From: Nonomuraea soli
Lineage (GTDB): Bacteria > Actinomycetota > Actinomycetes > Streptosporangiales > Streptosporangiaceae
Reading direction: 5' to 3'
Assembly (NCBI RefSeq): GCF_013761175.1
Contig: NZ_JACDUR010000001.1
Location: forward strand, 434,001-498,000
Length of the DNA: 64,000 bases
Positions 8,546-56,318 of this stretch are shown here, in pieces. Every line of letters begins with the position of its first letter. Within the stretch, counting starts at the first letter, position 1. A model generated the notes under the pieces. It did not search any database. It saw only the letters and a program-made list of their open reading frames with translations, and was not told where the DNA came from. The position numbers and the translations under genes are program-made.

Positions 8546-9319
8546 CTACGACGGCGGCACCTGGGCGAGGCCCCAGTCGAGGCGCTCGCGCAGCTCGACC
8601 GCGTCGGCGGCCAGGGCCTGGACCAGCGTTCCCGGTCCGGCCAGCGGCATCACCACCACCCCGTCGGCCACAGCCCCGTCGGCCACAGCCCCGTCGGCCA
8701 CAGCCCCGTCGGCCACCGCCGTGTCGCACGGCCGCGTCGTCAGCACGCTGCCGACGCACCGGGCGCCGCCCAGCACGGCGGGGGAGCAGGGGCCGGTGCC
8801 GAGCTCCAGCTCCTGCCTGAGCAGCGGCCGGCCGCCGGCCGTGGCGTCGAAGCGGGTGACGCAACGCCCGCCCGCCTCGCCGTACCTGCCCATGACGACC
8901 TCCTCGCGCCACCACACGCGGGCGTCGCCGTCCAGCGACAGCCGTACGGCCATGCGGTGGTCGCAGCCGTCGGCCAGGACGGTCGGTTCCGGGGCGAAGC
9001 GCAGCGACGCGCCCGCGCCGACGTGCGCCGTCACCGTCATGGACGACGGGCCCTCACCCGGCAGGACCAGCGTGGAGGCGATCGAGCCGACCTCGAGCGT
9101 CGTGCCGGGGGCCACGCGCAGGTCCAGTTCCAGCTCGTCGCCTCCGAGCGGCCCCGCCGCCGTGGAGACGAGGTGGACGGTGACGGGTCCGGTCTGGCGC
9201 AGGGTGAGCGGAGGGCTGGAGCGCAGGACGGTGAGGGCGGTCCGGCCCGCGGAGAGGGTCGTGGCGATCTCCGCCCGCGCCCGCATCGCCCGCCGCGCCG
9301 CGACCGCGGCCAGGCTCAC
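8546..9319 (-). CDS. ureD: Urease accessory protein UreD
   Basis: UreD (UreH) is the scaffold that with UreF and UreG loads nickel into apo-urease. It has 257 residues. Family signs include [22 protein letters not shown] and [14 protein letters not shown] read in parts. The GTG start at 9319 overlaps the ureG stop (GTGA). An open frame upstream to 9388 is an Arg-rich shadow of the His-rich ureG tail. Odd feature: residues about 201-220 are four copies of a VADGA unit encoded by a perfect 15-bp DNA repeat. It is the last gene of the leftward ureABCFGD operon. Confidence 0.93.
8659..8718. repeat. 15-bp tandem repeat, four copies, inside ureD
   Basis: The unit CCCCGTCGGCCACAG is present four times head to tail (8659, 8674, 8689, 8704), the last copy with one substitution. 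It is in frame and encodes the repeated VADGA stretch of UreD. Confidence 0.95.
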
Positions 9320-10026
9320 GCGTGCACCGGATGCCCGTGGTCGTGCCCGTGCCCGTGGTCGTGCCCGTGCTCGTGCTCGTGGGACCACTCGTGGACCTGT
9401 TCCGTGACCCAGGCGGCCACCTCTGCCGCCCCCTCGGTCCTGACCGAGGTGAACAGCACCGGCTTGCCCTGCCGTACGGCGGCCGCGTCGCGGTCCATGA
9501 CGCCCAGGTCGGCGCCGACCATCGGCGCCAGGTCCGTCTTGTTGACCACCAGCAGGTCGGCGGAGGTGACGCCGGGGCCGCCCTTGCGCGGCACCTTGTC
9601 GCCGCCCGACACGTCGAGGACGAAGATCTGCCGGTCGACCAGGCCCCGGCTGAAGGTGGCGGTCAGGTTGTCGCCGCCACTCTCGACGATCACCAGGTCG
9701 AGCGGCCCGAAGCGCTCCTCCAGCGTCTCCACGGCGTCCACGTTGGCCGCGATGTCGTCGCGGATGGCGGTGTGCGGGCAGCAGCCGGTCTCGACGGCCA
9801 GGATGCGCTCAGGGTCGAGCACCCCGGCCCTGCGCAGGAAGTCGGCGTCCTCGGTGGTGTAGATGTCGTTGGTAACCACGCCCAGGCGCAGCGAGCCGCC
9901 CAGCGCGCGGCACAACGCCGCGGTCAGGGCGGTCTTGCCGCTGCCGACCGGGCCGCCGATGCCCAGGCGCAGGGCCCGGCCGCGGCCGTCGGGAGCGTGG
10001 TGGACGTCGTCGTGTACTGCGCCCAT
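9316..10026 (-). CDS. ureG: Urease accessory GTPase UreG
   Basis: This GTPase delivers nickel to the urease active site. It has 236 residues. The P-loop GPVGSGKT lies near residue 25, and VVESGGDNL and [10 protein letters not shown] are the family Mg2+/base-binding motifs. AAAGGAG lies seven bases before the ATG. The N-terminus has HDDVHH, and the C-terminus carries an unusual His/Glu/Asp tail (about 212-236, including [17 protein letters not shown]) that could hold nickel ions. Most UreG proteins with a His-rich stretch have it at the N-terminus, so this placement is notable. Confidence 0.95.
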
Positions 10027-10653: not shown

Positions 10654-12350
10654 CAGAACAGGAAGTATCGCTGGGCCAGGGGCAGCACCGTGGCGGGCGA
10701 GGGTTCGACGCGTTCGCCGTCGATGCGCACCTCGAAGGTGTCGGGCGCGACCTCGATCCTGGGCATGGCGTCGTTCAGCGGCATGGAGGCCTTGCCTCGC
10801 CGCCGTACGTCGGCCACGGGCGCCAGCCGGCGGCGTACGGCGAGCCGGTCGCCGAGGCCCGACTCCAGGGCGAGCGGCGAGATGAAGTGCAGCGAGGTGG
10901 CCGCCGGAGTGGCGCCGAACGCGCCGAACATGGGCCGGGGCAGCACCGGCTGCGGCGTCGGGATGGAGGCGTTGGCGTCGCCCATCTGGGCCCAGGCCAC
11001 CACGCCGCCCTTGAGCACGAGGTCGGGCTTGACCCCGAAGAAGGCCGGGTCCCAGAGCACCAGGTCGGCGAGCTTGCCCGGCTCGACCGAGCCGACCTCC
11101 GCCTCCAGGCCGTGGGCGATCGCCGGGCAGATCGTGTACTTGGCGATGAAGCGGCGGGCCCGCAGGTTGTCGGCCACCGGGCCGAAGCGCCGCTCCATGA
11201 CGTGGGCGGTCTGCCAGGTACGGATGATCGTCTCGCCGACGCGTCCCATGGCCTGGGAGTCGGAGCCGATCATGGAGATCGCGCCCAGGTCGTGGAGCAC
11301 GTCCTCGGCGGCCATGGTCGAGGGCCTGATGCGCGACTCGGCGAAGGCCAGGTCCTCGGGGATGGAGGGGTTGAGATGGTGGCAGACCATCAGCATGTCG
11401 AGGTGCTCGTCGAGCGTGTTGACGGTGTGCGGGCGGGTCGGGTTCGTCGACGACGGCAGGATGTTGCCGTAGGAGGCCACCCGGATGATGTCGGGAGCGT
11501 GCCCGCCTCCGGCGCCCTCGGTGTGGTAGGCGTGGATCATCCGGTCGCCGATGGCCTTGAGCGTCGACTCGACGAATCCCGCCTCGTTGAGCGTGTCGGT
11601 GTGGATGGTCACCTGCACGCCGGTGGCGTCGGCGACGGCCAGGCAGGCGTCGATGGCGGCCGGGGTGGTGCCCCAGTCCTCGTGCAGCTTGAAGCCCGAG
11701 GCCCCGGCGCGCAGCTGCTCCAGCAGGCCCTCGGAGCTGACGGTGTTGCCCTTGCCGAGCAGAGCGAAGTTGAGCGGGAAGGCGTCGAGCGACTCCAGCA
11801 TGCGGCCCAGGTACCACGACGGGGTGACGGTGGTGGCCTTGGTGCCGTCGACCGGTCCGGTGCCGCCGCCGATGATCGTGGTGATGCCGGAGGCGATCGC
11901 GGTGTCGAGGACCTGCGGGCAGATCAGGTGCACGTGCGAGTCGATGCCGCCCGCGGTGAGGATCTTGCCGTTGCCGCCGAGGATCTCGGTCGACGGGCCG
12001 ATGACGATGTCGACGCCGTCCATGGTGTCGGGGTTGCCGGCCTTGCCGATGGCAGTGACGCGCCCGTCGGTCACGGCGACGTCGGCCTTGATCACGCCCC
12101 AGTGGTCGAGGATGACCGCGCCCGTGATGACCAGGTCGGGAGCGCCCTCCGCACGGGTGGTGCGGGCCTGGCCCATCGACTCGCGGATCACCTTGCCGCC
12201 GCCGAAGACGACCTCGTCACCGGCTCCCGCCGGGCCCATGGAGCGGTCCTCGGTGACCTCGATGAACAGGTCGGTGTCGGCCAGGCGCACCTTGTCGCCG
12301 ACGGTGGGGCCGTAGAGGGCGGCGTAGCGCGCGCGGGAGATCTCAGGCAT
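10653..12350 (-). CDS. ureC: Urease alpha subunit UreC
   Basis: This is the catalytic subunit that hydrolyses urea to ammonia and carbamate at a di-nickel site. It has 565 residues, full length. Visible are the HxH metal motif in DSHVHLI, the carbamylated lysine in GFKLHEDWG (about residue 217), and the catalytic flap histidines in [22 protein letters not shown] (read in parts). The chosen start is ATG 12350 ([18 protein letters not shown]). A 43-bp duplication places a decoy copy of the same start at 12393, which opens only a 16-codon frame. Confidence 0.97.
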
Positions 12351-12417
12351 GGGGGTGATCCTCGGTCGAGCGGGCGCGGGAGATCTCAGGCATCGGGGGC
12401 TCCTCGGTCGAGCGGGC
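12331..12417. repeat. 43-bp imperfect tandem duplication at the ureB-ureC junction
   Basis: The segment beginning GCGCGGGAGATCTCAGGCAT at 12331 is repeated from 12374. Each copy includes the ureC start with its first seven codons and the CTCGGTCGAGCGGG flank. The copies differ by a few bases between the CAT and the flank. Confidence 0.9.
12345..12393 (-). CDS. 16-codon upstream frame bridging ureB and ureC
   Basis: The decoy ureC start at 12393 opens a frame that reads [16 protein letters not shown] and stops at 12345-12347. It begins by overlapping the ureB stop (ATGCCTGA) and ends by overlapping the true ureC start with the identical ATGCCTGA arrangement. Ribosomes could pass ureB to mini-frame to ureC by the same coupling. 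It is probably a by-product of the 43-bp duplication; translation is inferred, not shown. Confidence 0.5.
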
Positions 12418-12708
12418 CTGCCCACTCGGGGCGCAGTCCTGGCACGATCCGGTTGCCGGCCAGCGGCACCAGGGTGACGTCGCGCTCCACGCCGGGCTCG
12501 AAGCGCACGGCCGTACCGGCGGGGACGTCGAGGCGGTGACCCCAGGCGGCCTTGCGGTCGAAGGACAGGCCGGGGTTGACGGCGGCGAAGTGGTAGTGGG
12601 AGCCGACCTGGATCGGGCGGTCGGCGGTGTTGACGACGCGCAGCGTGACGCGCGGGCGGCCGGGATTCAGCTCGACGGCCTCGTCGGGCACGACGTACTC
12701 GCCGGGGA

Positions 12709-12712
<4 letters not shown>
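12386..12712 (-). CDS. ureB: Urease beta subunit UreB
   Basis: This is the structural beta subunit of the urease (alpha-beta-gamma)3 complex. It has 108 residues, normal. Motifs: [10 protein letters not shown] start, then [18 protein letters not shown] and [15 protein letters not shown], typical of the family. The ATG at 12712 overlaps the ureA stop (ATGA). Its 3' end lies in the tandem duplication that separates it from ureC. Confidence 0.95.
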
Positions 12713-13011
<299 letters not shown>

Positions 13012-14480: not shown

Positions 14481-15332
14481 TTGGAAGCCTTCGTCAACCA
14501 GCTGCCGATCGGCCTGTCGATCGGCGCCGTGCTCCTGCTCATCGCCCTGGGCCTGACCTTCACCTTCGGGCAGATGGGCGTGATCAACATGGCGCACGGC
14601 GAGTTCATCATGGCGGGTGCCTACACCGCCTTCCTCCTGCCCGGCCTGTTCGTGCCCTCGCTGGTCGTGGCCTTCTTCGTGGCCGGGGCGATGGGCCTGG
14701 TCCTGGAGCGGCTGGCCATCCGGCACTTCTACGGCAGGCCGCTCGACACGCTGCTGCTCACCTGGGGCGTCAGCCTGGTGCTGCAACAGCTCGCCCGCGA
14801 CCTGTTCGGCGCCCCGAACGTGCAGGTCAAGGCGCCCGACTGGCTCGCCGGCGGCATCGGCATCCTGCCGTACAACCGCCTGTTCATCATGGGCCTGGCC
14901 ATCGCCAGCGTCGTGGGGGTCTGGCTCTACCTGGTGAGAACCAAGCACGGCCGGCGCATGCGCGCGGTCATGCAGAACAGAAGGCTCGCGGCGACCAGCG
15001 GCATCGACACCGGCCGCGTCGACATGCTGACCTTCTTCATCGGCTCCGGGCTGGCGGGCATCGCAGGGGTGGCGCTCACGCTCGTCGGCCCGGTCGGTCC
15101 CTCGCTGGGCACCTACTACATCGTCGACGCCTTCCTGGTCGTGGTCGCGGGCGGTCTCGGACAGCTGCGCGGGGCGGTCCTGGCGGCGGCCGGGCTCGGG
15201 CTGCTCAACTCCTACGCCGAGTTCTGGTCGGACGCGAGCCTGGCCAAGGTCATCGTGTTCGCCGCCGTCATCGCGTTCCTGCAGTTCCGGCCGCAGGGCC
15301 TGTTCACCGTCAGATCGCGAGCCCTCTCATGA
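14481..15332 (+). CDS. urtB: Urea ABC transporter permease UrtB
   Basis: This is a LivH-type inner-membrane permease of 283 residues with about eight helices. It starts with TTG at 14481, supported by AAAGGACGG at about 14469 and by the start of the first helix (MEAFVNQLPIGLSIGAVLLL). Family features include GQMGVINMAHGEF and GLGQLRGAVLAA. It is shorter than proteobacterial UrtB, which often has an extra exported domain. The stop overlaps the urtC ATG. Confidence 0.94.
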   Translation: MEAFVNQLPIGLSIGAVLLLIALGLTFTFGQMGVINMAHGEFIMAGAYTAFLLPGLFVPSLVVAFFVAGAMGLVLERLAIRHFYGRPLDTLLLTWGVSLVLQQLARDLFGAPNVQVKAPDWLAGGIGILPYNRLFIMGLAIASVVGVWLYLVRTKHGRRMRAVMQNRRLAATSGIDTGRVDMLTFFIGSGLAGIAGVALTLVGPVGPSLGTYYIVDAFLVVVAGGLGQLRGAVLAAAGLGLLNSYAEFWSDASLAKVIVFAAVIAFLQFRPQGLFTVRSRALS

Positions 15333-15382
15333 ACAAGACCGACGTCATGAACAAGGCCGACGTCATGAAAAAGGCCGATGTC
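15329..15382. repeat. 18-bp tandem repeat with start codons in urtC
   Basis: Three full units of ATGAACAAGRCCGACGTC type (15329, 15347, 15365) are followed by a partial fourth at 15383. Each begins with ATG in the urtC frame. Confidence 0.95.
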
Positions 15383-16381
15383 ATGAAAAAGGCGATCTAT
15401 CCGATCCTCGTCGGCCTGCTGGTCGTCGCCGCGCCGTTCCTCATGGACGCCTTCCGGCTCAACCTGCTGGCCAAATACCTCTGCTTCGCGATCGTCGCCC
15501 TCGGCATTGGCCTGGCCTGGGGACAGGGCGGCATGCTCACCCTCGGCCAGGGCGTCTTCTTCGGCCTGGGCGGCTACTCGATGGCCATGTACCTCAAGCT
15601 CCAGGAAGGCGGCCTGCCCGACTTCATGGTCTGGAGCGGCGTGGAGAAACTGCCCGCGCTGTGGACGCCCTTCGCCAACCCCGTCTTCGCCCTCGCGACG
15701 GCAATCCTCGGGCCCATGCTCCTGGCCACCCTGCTCGGCCTGCTGGTCTTCCGCCAGCGGGTGCGCGGCGCCTACTTCGCCATCCTCACCCAGGCGCTGG
15801 CCGCCGCCCTGGTCATCCTGCTCGTCGGCCAGCAGGGCCTGACCGGCGGCACCAACGGCATGACCAACTTCTACGACCTGTTCGCCTGGGACCTGGCCGA
15901 GGACTCCACGCAGCGCGGGCTGTACTTCGTGGTCGCCGTCGTGCTCGCGCTGCTCTACCTGGGCGCGCGTCAGCTGGTCAGGAGCAGGTACGGCAGGCTG
16001 CTGGTGGCGGTGCGCGACGGTGAGGACCGGGTGCGCTTCCTCGGCTACGACCCGGCCACCGTCAAGACCGTCACCTTCGCGATCTCGGCGGGCATGGCGG
16101 GCCTGGCCGGAGCGCTGTTCGTGCCCGTCGTCGGGATCATCTCGCCCGCCCTGCTCGGCGTCGTCCCGTCGCTGGAGCTGGTCGTCGCCGTCGCGGTGGG
16201 CGGACGCTACGCGCTGGCCGGAGCCGTCCTGGGCGCGGTCGTCATGGGATACGCCAAGACCGCCTTCAGCGAGCAGTTCGCCGACGGCTGGCTCTACCTG
16301 CAAGGGGCCCTGTTCATCCTGGTGATGACGCTCGCCCCGAAGGGAATCATGGGGGTGATCAAGCGTGCTCGAACTGCGTGA
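15329..16381 (+). CDS. urtC: Urea ABC transporter permease UrtC
   Basis: This is a LivM-type permease of 350 residues with about ten helices; GQGGMLTLGQGVFFGLGGY is the family motif. The first 25 residues are an odd Lys/Asp-rich repeat (MNKTDV-MNKADV-MKKADV-MKKAIYP) encoded by an 18-bp tandem repeat, and every unit begins with an in-frame ATG (15329, 15347, 15365, 15383). ATG 15329 overlaps the urtB stop and is the coupled start; 15383 would give a more usual N-terminus. Confidence 0.94.
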   Translation: MNKTDVMNKADVMKKADVMKKAIYPILVGLLVVAAPFLMDAFRLNLLAKYLCFAIVALGIGLAWGQGGMLTLGQGVFFGLGGYSMAMYLKLQEGGLPDFMVWSGVEKLPALWTPFANPVFALATAILGPMLLATLLGLLVFRQRVRGAYFAILTQALAAALVILLVGQQGLTGGTNGMTNFYDLFAWDLAEDSTQRGLYFVVAVVLALLYLGARQLVRSRYGRLLVAVRDGEDRVRFLGYDPATVKTVTFAISAGMAGLAGALFVPVVGIISPALLGVVPSLELVVAVAVGGRYALAGAVLGAVVMGYAKTAFSEQFADGWLYLQGALFILVMTLAPKGIMGVIKRARTA

Positions 16382-53316: not shown

Positions 53317-53436
53317 CCAGTCTTCGCGCGCCCGGTCTTCGCGCGCCCGGCCTTCGTGCGCCTGGCCTTCGTGAACCCGGTCTTCGCGCACTCGGCCTTC
53401 GCGCACTCAGGTGTCGCGCGCCCAGGTCTCGCGCAC
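53317..53436. repeat. 15-bp tandem repeat, about eight copies, across the 3' end of the hydrolase gene
   Basis: Units of the type CCGGTCTTCGCGCGC follow each other at 53317, 53332, 53347, 53362, 53377, 53392, 53407 and 53422 with scattered substitutions. Copies 53407 and 53422 encode the last residues and stop of the leftward hydrolase gene; the other six lie past its stop codon in the same frame. Confidence 0.9.
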
Positions 53437-54237
53437 CCAGTCGAGCGCCTCGGGGGCCGTGCGCAGGATGGAGATGTGCCCGTCGTCCGCGCCCGTCCGC
53501 GCGAGCGCGCCGGGGATGTGGCCGGCCAGCCAGCGGCCGTGCGCGGCGGGGATCACCCGGTCGCGGTCGCCGTGCACCACCAGCGTAGGAACGGCGATCC
53601 GCGCGGGGTCGAACCCCCACGGCGCGACGTAGGCCAGGTCGTCGTCGATCAGGGCTCCAGGACCGTTGTCCATCGCCGCTCCGACCACGCTGCCGAACCA
53701 CGCCCACTCCTGGTCGAGGGCCGCGTGGTCGCCGGGCGTGAACATCTCCGGGTCGTACTCCGCGACCGCCTCGTGGGCTTCCTTGGCCTCCCGGCCCCGG
53801 GCCGCCGCGCGTAGCGACGCCACCCCCGACGGGGTCATGCCGCCGAACCAGTCGAGCCCCTCCGCGTCGTAGGGAGCCGGGCTCGACACGCTCACGACGG
53901 CCCGCACCCGGCCCGGTGACAACGCCGCGCAGGCCAGCGCGTGGGCCCCGCCGCCCGAATGCCCCATCACCACGTAGTGCTCCAGGCCCAGCTCGGCGGC
54001 GACCCGCTCGGTGTACGCCGCGGCCGAGGCGATGTCGCGGCCCGGACTCGGCGTCGAACCGCCGTAGCCGGGGCGGTCGTAGGAGATCCAGCGCACCCCG
54101 GGAAGGAACAGCGGCCGCGGCGGGGCGCCGATGTTGGGGGTGCCGTGGTGCCAGAAGACCGGGATCTCGCCCGTCCGCGTGTCGTAGACGTGCAGGATCC
54201 GGCCTTCGCCCAGGTCGAGATCGAATTCGGCGGTCAT
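53407..54237 (-). CDS. Alpha/beta hydrolase with a repeat-derived C-terminus
   Basis: The protein has 276 residues. The oxyanion segment is FWHHGTPNIGAPP, the nucleophile GHSGGGAHAL, the acid Asp in HGDRDRVIP and the His in DDGHISIL, so it is a complete triad. The last residues (VRETW, ARDT) are units of the 15-bp repeat. The TGA at 53407-53409 falls where a TGG would keep the frame open for six more units until TGA 53314-53316, so the protein may have been longer. Substrate unknown. Confidence 0.87.
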   Translation of the reverse strand: MTAEFDLDLGEGRILHVYDTRTGEIPVFWHHGTPNIGAPPRPLFLPGVRWISYDRPGYGGSTPSPGRDIASAAAYTERVAAELGLEHYVVMGHSGGGAHALACAALSPGRVRAVVSVSSPAPYDAEGLDWFGGMTPSGVASLRAAARGREAKEAHEAVAEYDPEMFTPGDHAALDQEWAWFGSVVGAAMDNGPGALIDDDLAYVAPWGFDPARIAVPTLVVHGDRDRVIPAAHGRWLAGHIPGALARTGADDGHISILRTAPEALDWVRETWARDT

Positions 54238-54888: not shown

Positions 54889-55392
54889 GTGACGACGTTC
54901 CGGATCAGCGAGGCCGCTGCCCTGCTGGGGGTCAGCGCCGACACCGTGCGCCGGTGGGTCGACGCGGGCAGGCTGGCCGCCGAACGCGACGAGCACGGCC
55001 ACCGGCAGGTCAACGGCGCCGACCTGGCGGCCTTCGCCCGCTCCCAGGTGGGCGCCGGTGAGGACGGCGTACGGTCCTCGGCGCGCAACCGCTTCCGCGG
55101 GATCGTGACCGAGGTGATCCGCGACGCGGTGATGGCGCAGGTGGAGATCGCGGCGGGTCCGCACCGGGTGGTGTCGCTCATGAGCCGCCAGGCCGCCGAC
55201 GAGCTGGGGCTGGAGCCGGGGGTGGTGGCCGTGGCGGTGATCAAGTCCACCAACGTGGTCGTCGAACTCCCCAGCCACGACCGCGCCACAGGACAGGACC
55301 GCGCCACAGGACAGGACCGCGCCACGGGTCACGACCGCGCCACGGGTCACGACCGCGCCGCCGCTCACGATCGCGGCGCCGGCCAGGTGTGA
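54889..55392 (+). CDS. MerR-like HTH / TOBE-domain molybdate-type regulator
   Basis: The protein has 167 residues from GTG 54889. Residues 4-50 are an excisionase/MerR-type helix-turn-helix (FRISEAAALLGVSADTVRRWVDAG). Residues 65-130 are one TOBE/Mop domain (ARNRFRGIVTEVIRDAVMAQVEI, VVAVIKSTNVVVE) expected to bind molybdate or tungstate. The tail (131-167) is six units of DRATGQ type encoded by an 18-bp repeat. It overlaps modB (GTGA) and probably regulates it. Confidence 0.88.
   Translation: MTTFRISEAAALLGVSADTVRRWVDAGRLAAERDEHGHRQVNGADLAAFARSQVGAGEDGVRSSARNRFRGIVTEVIRDAVMAQVEIAAGPHRVVSLMSRQAADELGLEPGVVAVAVIKSTNVVVELPSHDRATGQDRATGQDRATGHDRATGHDRAAAHDRGAGQV
55279..55386. repeat. 18-bp tandem repeat, six copies, in the TOBE regulator tail
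   Basis: The unit GACCGCGCCACAGGACAG starts at 55279, 55297, 55315, 55333, 55351 and 55369, with the later copies more diverged. It encodes DRATGQ, DRATGQ, DRATGH, DRATGH, DRAAAH and DRGAGQ. Confidence 0.95.
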
Positions 55393-56318
55393 GGGGACAC
55401 GCGGTGGCAGGTCCCGACAAACGACCACCCGGTGCGCCCGGCACACCCGAGCCTGGCGGGTCGTCCGCGGAACGCGGCCCGGCCGGAGCCGACGCGGCAG
55501 CCGGGCGGCTCGAACCCGGGCAGCTCAAACCGGGGCGGCTCAAGGCCGGGCGGTTGCCGTGGATGCTGGTGGTGCCGGCCGTGCTCGGGCTGGCGTTCCT
55601 GGTCCTGCCCCTGGCCGGTCTGCTGGTCAGGGCCCCGTGGTCGACCCTGCCGCAGCGCCTGGCCGAGCCGCAGGTGCTGGAGGCCCTGCGGCTCTCCCTG
55701 GTCACCGCCACCATCGCCACCGCCGTCTGCCTCCTGCTCGGCGTGCCCCTGGCCTGGCTGCTGGCCAGGGTGGAGTTCCCCGGCCGCCGCCTGGTGCGGG
55801 CGCTGGTGACCGTCCCCCTGGTGCTCCCCCCGGTGGTGGGCGGCGTCGCCCTGCTGCTGGTCCTGGGACGGCGCGGCCTGATCGGCCAGTGGCTGGAGAG
55901 CACGTTCGGCGTCACCCTGCCCTTCACCACGGCCGGGGTGGTCGTCGCCGAGGCGTTCGTGGCCATGCCGTTCCTGGTCATCAGCGTCGAAGGTGCCCTG
56001 CGTGGCGCGGATCGGCGCTTCGAGGAGGCCGCCGCCACCCTGGGAGCGTCGAGGATGACGGTCTTCCGCCGGGTGACCCTCCCGATGATCATGCCGGGCG
56101 TCGTCGCGGGGGCGGTGTTGTGCTGGGCGCGGGCGCTGGGTGAGTTCGGCGCGACGATCACCTTCGCGGGCAACTTCCCCGGCACCACGCGGACCATGCC
56201 CCTGGCCGTCTACCTGGCGCTGGAGACCGAGCCCGAGGCGGCGATCGTGCTCAGCCTGGTCCTGCTGGCCGTCTCGGTGATCATCCTGGCCAGCCTGCGC
56301 GACCGGTGGCTGTCGTGA
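55389..56318 (+). CDS. modB: Molybdate-type ABC permease ModB
   Basis: The permease has 309 residues. After an unusual about 55-residue Pro/Gly-rich cytoplasmic extension, five to six helices follow. EEAAATLGASRMTVFRRVTLPMIMPG is the EAA loop that touches the ATPase, and ALGEFGATITFAGNFPGTTRTMPLAVY is typical of ModB/CysT. GTG 55389 overlaps the regulator stop; the extension contains a 15-bp repeat (GRLEPGQLKPGRLKAGRL). It pairs with ModC; no modA is found in the window. Confidence 0.9.
   Translation: MRGHAVAGPDKRPPGAPGTPEPGGSSAERGPAGADAAAGRLEPGQLKPGRLKAGRLPWMLVVPAVLGLAFLVLPLAGLLVRAPWSTLPQRLAEPQVLEALRLSLVTATIATAVCLLLGVPLAWLLARVEFPGRRLVRALVTVPLVLPPVVGGVALLLVLGRRGLIGQWLESTFGVTLPFTTAGVVVAEAFVAMPFLVISVEGALRGADRRFEEAAATLGASRMTVFRRVTLPMIMPGVVAGAVLCWARALGEFGATITFAGNFPGTTRTMPLAVYLALETEPEAAIVLSLVLLAVSVIILASLRDRWLS
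55506..55550. repeat. 15-bp tandem repeat, three copies, in the modB N-terminus
   Basis: Units CGGCTCGAACCCGGG (55506), CAGCTCAAACCGGGG (55521) and CGGCTCAAGGCCGGG (55536) encode the repeat LEPGQ/LKPGR/LKAGR in the ModB extension. Confidence 0.85.

Follow-up and report, generated by a model that had tools for sequence, protein, structure and literature searches.

A duplicated ureB-ureC junction with a 16-codon frame that may keep two urease genes coupled

How two overlapping genes might stay translationally coupled after an insertion has pulled them apart is the question raised by the urease genes in the window (the whole 64-kb stretch of DNA that was analysed). Here ureB, a mini-frame of 16 codons and ureC overlap in series on the minus strand, and both links are made through ATGCCTGA (Table 1). 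The preliminary description had placed an ATG at 12393 over the ureB stop, with a 16-codon frame ending in the same overlap over the ureC start at 12350, and this arrangement was confirmed in the sequence. Minus-strand occurrences of ATGCCTGA and of the 20-mer ATGCCTGAGATCTCCCGCGC were found at 12393 and 12350, and alignment with relatives identified ATG 12350 as the start of ureC. The overlap at the two relay steps is -8 and -8, and the direct spacing from ureB to ureC is +35. The best explanation, to which we assign a probability of roughly 0.55 from the sequence comparisons below, is that a 42-bp duplication plus one base produced the mini-frame, which would serve as a ribosome relay that keeps ureB and ureC coupled. 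The peptide encoded by the mini-frame, which is known from one genome, probably has no role. The duplicated junction is a test case, provided by nature, for the way in which overlapping genes remain coupled once an insertion has occurred, and it points to a simple mutational origin for very short coupling cistrons that involves no mobile element.

Table 1. Features of the urease junction and of the urtB-urtC array (positions in the window)
Feature	Position	Strand	Remarks
ureA	12709-13011	-	Named by NCBIfam models
ureB, urease beta subunit, 108 aa	12386-12712	-	Translation; NF009682.0, E 1.2e-46 (scanned as 12389-12715)
ureC, urease alpha subunit, 565 aa	10653-12350	-	NF009685.0, 1058 bits against a cut-off of 907
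Overlap of ureA stop and ureB start	12709-12712	-	ATGA
First ATGCCTGA, mini-frame start over ureB stop	12386-12393	-	ureB stop at 12388-12386
Mini-frame, 16 codons	12343-12393	-	Start ATG 12393, stop 12345-12343
Second ATGCCTGA, ureC start over mini-frame stop	12343-12350	-	ureC start at 12350
Repeat copy 1, 42 bp	12376-12417	-	Contains ureB stop and first ATG; AGGAG 6 nt before this ATG
Repeat copy 2, one extra base	12331-12375	-	Match extends to 12331; contains true ureC start; AGGA at 12362-12359, 8 nt before it
Left 7-bp microhomology	12411-12417	-	GCCCGCT
Right 7-bp microhomology	12369-12375	-	GCCCGCT, 42 bp from the left one
18-bp array over urtB-urtC ATGA overlap (15329-15332)	15327-15393	+	Four in-frame ATGs (MNKTDVMNKADVMKKADVMKK)

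The array at the ureB-ureC junction received a TRF score of 154, the highest among 82 rows in the window; the maxima for 20 random 64-kb sequences of the same nearest-neighbour composition were 45 to 68. The repeat is not a product of chance. Its left block, with GCCCGCT and CTCGACCGAGGA, recurs with a period of 42 bp, and its right block, with ATGCCTGAGATCTCCCGCGC and the ATGs, with a period of 43 bp. These unequal periods imply a one-base indel between the copies, which also differ by a few substitutions, both near the indel and at CGCGCCCGC/CGCGCGCGC. The duplication of 43 bp that had been proposed initially therefore stands as to the two copies of the ureC start, 43 bp apart and within the high-scoring array, but not as to the unit, since a clean 43-bp duplication is ruled out by the 42-bp spacing of the left block. 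The simplest reading is that 42 bp were duplicated between the two GCCCGCT heptamers and that one base was added. The duplication would have occurred by slippage or recombination between the heptamers and would initially have placed 14 in-frame codons before ureC; the extra base would then have turned the upstream ureC start into that of a mini-frame ending on the ureC start. This insertion is more likely to have occurred in copy 2 than in copy 1, because copy 1 is constrained by ureB coding, whereas the corresponding stretch of copy 2 does not code for UreB. Alternatively, a 43-bp unit may have been duplicated and a base lost from copy 1.

An intact relay had been presented as surprising in that 43 is not a multiple of three. 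This argument did not hold up. At an overlap of the type ATGNNTGA, a relay results from a shift of 1 mod 3, an in-frame extension from one of 0 mod 3 and neither from one of 2 mod 3, so that the relay seen here follows automatically and is unsurprising in itself. The chance of relay phase for random gaps at such a junction is about 1 in 2.

A UreC-like match was found in 51 of the 54 genomes of the genus, and an orthologous ureC with a readable junction in 43, the window included. In the 42 others an in-frame ureC start lies over the ureB stop without exception, at -5 in 41 and at -14 in one (L064). The duplication with its mini-frame was absent from all 42 of these ureB-ureC junctions, by which an ancient shared mini-frame was ruled out. 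The comparison with related genomes suggested in the preliminary description, made here with one genome per species, supported a lineage-specific duplication: judged from these sequences, the duplicated junction is a derived state within the genus. Its sequence did not turn up in distant relatives either, the finding that was to have spoken against recency, and the bridging mini-frames that exist elsewhere are unrelated. In a UreC tree of 100 rows, built from a conserved tyrosine onward and hence without the junction, by a quick method with SH-aLRT values only and no bootstrap, the window fell inside the genus clade (SH-aLRT 99) as sister of L064 from genome G051 (98). This nearest UreC relative carries a 9-bp in-frame duplication of its own over the ureC start. 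In the window's own genome (G000), no other copy over the repeat was found at E 1e-3 and only short, weak ones up to E 10; two genome matches at E 7e-4 lie at query positions 249-279 and 720-760, outside the repeat (query 604-690). A pattern for the same double junction gave 0 matches across the collection, a weak zero in that records near the window's genome may be omitted. A ureC match with an in-frame TAG, representing a pseudogene or a sequence error, was noted at G008:C4:139687-141393.

A wider survey drew on the genus, the family Streptosporangiaceae, the class, one further genus (g71, Mycobacterium) and 80 named contigs. Its 396 loci yielded 361 distinct ureB-ureC junctions after removal of 3 non-junctions, 24 duplicates and 8 unreadable cases, and 356 could be chained. 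Direct overlap was observed in 313, one bridging frame in 21, chains of two or three frames in 3 and neither in 19. The bridged junctions therefore number 24 including the window, and 18 of the 23 others are from Mycobacterium. The bridges outside Mycobacterium, besides that of the window, comprise 12 codons in L115 (Jidongwangia harbinensis), 6 codons in L139 (an actinomycete MAG), a 63-codon GTG frame in L282 (an uncertain case, with other in-frame upstream starts for ureC), one 58-codon frame in L175 (Roseococcus sp. SYP-B2431) that contains three 60-bp repeats and has TGATG at both ends, and 5 codons from a TTG in L177, which looks accidental yet is counted among the 24. A 5-codon bridge seen by eye in L396 was scored as direct overlap owing to an in-frame TTG.

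The frequency of bridging was compared with that in a null model of random gaps, conditioned on the absence of direct overlap. Separated junctions with a gap below 6 nt or without a usable start were dropped (L107, L108, L170, L171, L176, L177, L213, L245, L343 and L389), leaving 15 non-mycobacterial and 18 mycobacterial junctions. Among the former, 5 of 15 were bridged against 2.0 expected (P 0.008), or 4 of 14 against 1.5 when the window was left out (P 0.014), both P values being for few, post hoc cases. All 18 mycobacterial junctions were bridged against 7.2 expected, the cases not being independent. An unconditional version of the null gave 1.39 and 5.3 expected, respectively, which makes the conditional one the stricter. 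An excess of bridging over random gaps, and selection for bridging in general, are suggestive only.

Mycobacterium was represented by 248 genomes, and the gene was present at E 1e-200 in 173 of them. Junctions were picked in order of UreC score, not randomly, and 18 of 121 distinct ones were bridged. In most cases a short ORF resembling ATGAGCGCTTGCGCGAAGA... forms the bridge; L198 and L377 have a different sequence. The pattern ATGA...ATGAC before ureC was present in 8 of the 248 genomes, with both ATGs in relay phase in all 8. In L328, L339 and L345 the unit occurs three times in 32-bp steps, which yields a chain from ureB through as many as three mini-frames to ureC. Exact matches of the mycobacterial unit numbered 11 in G454, 29 in G609, 36 in G724, 2 in G245 and 15 in G734; there were 0 in the window's genome, and 0 for the reversed control. 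Among 12 sample loci, some units bridge other genes likewise, for example in L407 (10 codons between a 414-aa and a 358-aa frame), and others, such as those of L400 and L405, do not bridge. At L404 (G734:C4), a 468-aa and a 320-aa frame appear to be separated by a series of four MIRU-like 11-codon frames, one of which starts with GTG.

MIRUs are reportedly to be attributed to Supply et al. 1997. In the portion of a review available to us (PMC12548453), they are described as short repeats, apparently mobile, whose insertion at a start codon couples their own ORF with -4 spacing to the gene at that site; the coupling presumably keeps the impact of the insertion on this gene small. From their fit with this partial description, we infer that the mycobacterial bridging units are MIRU-like. 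The short ORF of the window resembles them in overlapping both the flanking stop and the flanking start, as the mycobacterial ureB-ureC ORFs also do, sometimes in tandem. It differs in two respects: MIRUs are dispersed, whereas the window has one copy only, made locally from the junction itself; and the spacing with which MIRUs insert at start codons is -4 (ATGA), whereas the window has 8-nt ATGCCTGA overlaps.

Duplications spanning a start were sought at ureB-ureC and urtB-urtC. All 8 obeyed the phase rule, namely those at ureB-ureC in the window, L064, L075, L289, L328, L339 and L345 and that at urtB-urtC in the window, the 32-bp mycobacterial cases possibly sharing ancestry. Tandem duplications were observed in 14 of 356 junction windows as opposed to 0 of 280 ureC and 0 of 356 ureB control windows, a comparison in which the junction windows exceed the 55-nt controls where the genes lie apart, coding constraint differs, and the array described here is uncounted owing to its indel. 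Of 32 genus relatives with a match, 29 were fetched, and all 29 lack the 18-bp array at urtB-urtC. Small in-frame repeats of a different kind lie directly downstream of the urtC start in two urtC loci from genus relatives (L415 and L418).

It is conceivable, though on balance we think it unlikely, that overlapping stop-start junctions are self-copying relay modules, that their duplication is a general way in which tiny coupling cistrons arise, and that MIRU-type units could derive from them. If so, a duplication would add codons in frame when its length is 0 mod 3, and would give rise to a bridging cistron at 1 mod 3 (for ATGNNTGA) or 2 mod 3 (for ATGA); the remaining phase alone would break the link. 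All overlapping gene pairs lend themselves to a check of this phase rule.

Under the relay reading, a share of the ribosomes ending ureB would restart at 12393, read the 16 codons, stop at 12345-12343 and restart at 12350. Coupling would thereby be kept despite the distance of 35 nt that now separates the ureB stop from the ureC start. According to the available text of PMC10666635, reporters on native pairs of Haloferax volcanii and Escherichia coli had coupling almost abolished by a gap of about 20 nt; at +38 nt, two E. coli pairs lost 80-90% of it and a third lost it entirely. For coupling, no more of the upstream gene is needed than its last 15 nt, according to that text. Other reporter studies cited in the same text found coupling to persist over 73 nt and over 150-850 nt. 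Since the direct gap in the window is near those at which native-pair coupling was nearly lost, the mini-frame would repair the coupling. The spacing at each relay step also falls within the -8 to +10 nt given there for termination-reinitiation.

The predicted ribosome site was -7.9 kcal/mol for the mini-frame ATG and -5.9 kcal/mol for ureC. For the -16 to -4 stretch, the latter value is close to what is typical of the genus (median -6.2, range -9.6 to -2.1, n=42), but it is weaker than the genus median of a wider stretch (-7.8, range -9.6 to -5.0) and than the median of 52 other family junctions (-8.4). The ureC start region was predicted to be unpaired at 0.58, compared to a genus median of 0.38 (range 0.24-0.51, 42 relatives), and this predicted openness was hardly altered, at 0.56, when the ureB stop region was held open. 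An open start that is little changed by opening of the ureB stop may need no ribosome delivery, and local RNA structure as the reason for a relay is unsupported by these predictions.

The mini-frame could instead be a bystander, with ureC initiated independently from its own site (AGGA, spacer 8) and the frame an arithmetic by-product. Such an explanation is plausible but, in our judgement, doubtful. It is consistent with the ribosome site and predicted open start region of ureC, with the lack of a bridge at 10 of the 15 non-mycobacterial separated junctions and with a relay phase that follows from arithmetic. It has to accommodate, however, that ribosomes ending ureB sit on ATG 12393, where the predicted site is the stronger of the two and a certain amount of initiation is therefore likely; moreover, 35 nt exceeds the coupling range for native pairs in the available text of PMC10666635, and direct overlap has been retained at 313 of 356 junctions. 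If, on the other hand, the extra base were an assembly or sequencing error, the real state would be a 42-bp in-frame duplication giving UreC 14 more N-terminal residues or two alternative starts. The exact 42-bp spacing of the left block would be explained, and in-frame duplications spanning a start do occur at ureB-ureC in L064 and L075 and at urtB-urtC in the window. We nevertheless consider an error quite improbable, as the substitutions between the copies, around the indel and beyond it, indicate a genuinely diverged region, and the host contig measures 1.55 Mb.

Insertion of a mobile MIRU-type element between ureB and ureC would account for a design that matches the mycobacterial short ORFs at this junction. 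The insert is, however, a copy of the ureB-ureC junction itself, its own genome has no other copy over the repeat, and the mycobacterial unit has 0 matches there as opposed to 2-36 in five Mycobacterium genomes. A dispersed element was ruled out by the lack of both, and we find such an insertion scarcely credible.

Coupling via a short upstream ORF is already known from MIRUs, coupled small ORFs and synthetic bicistronic designs. As given in the accessible part of Shell et al. 2015 (PMC4633059), coupled small ORFs are over-represented in mycobacteria (23/220 as opposed to 32/1000), and the linkage can be conserved without conservation of the peptide sequence. Like the mini-frame, they end on the start codon of the next gene; unlike it, the small ORFs described in that part were defined by an RTGA tetramer and scored on leaderless transcripts, whereas the frame in the window lies inside an operon and uses ATGCCTGA, so that no RTGA is shared by stop and next start. 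The termination-reinitiation pairs in the available portions of PMC6728339 and PMC10666635 share the overlap of stop and start and neighbours that encode subunits of one complex, but the window has two overlaps in series via a very short frame. The leader cistrons of bicistronic designs, synthetic constructs mentioned in the available text of PMC12548453, likewise pass ribosomes from a short cistron to the next start, but the frame described here is natural, operon-internal and made by duplication. In searches of an open-licence library, no bridging frame born from the duplication of an overlapping junction was found, and none at ureB-ureC. Annotation is likely to miss a bridging frame of this kind.

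Further arrays were observed in the window. Near the urease genes, an 18-bp array at 9332-9381 encodes the His/Gly/Asp-rich tail of UreG. The frame at 8546-9388, adjoining ureG, contains a 15-bp array of 4.1 copies (8659-8720) encoding AVADG repeats; it had no match among the NCBIfam models and is probably the urease accessory gene ureD. Towards its end, a regulator-like frame (54889-55392) has DRATGQ/DRATGH repeats encoded by an 18-bp array of 5.6 copies at 55276-55375, which lies 14 nt before the GTGA overlap (55389-55392) of this frame with a permease-like one (55389-56318). A 15-bp array is present at 55501-55553, and a 15/45-bp array at 53320-53442 lies around the end of a hydrolase-like frame (53407-54237).
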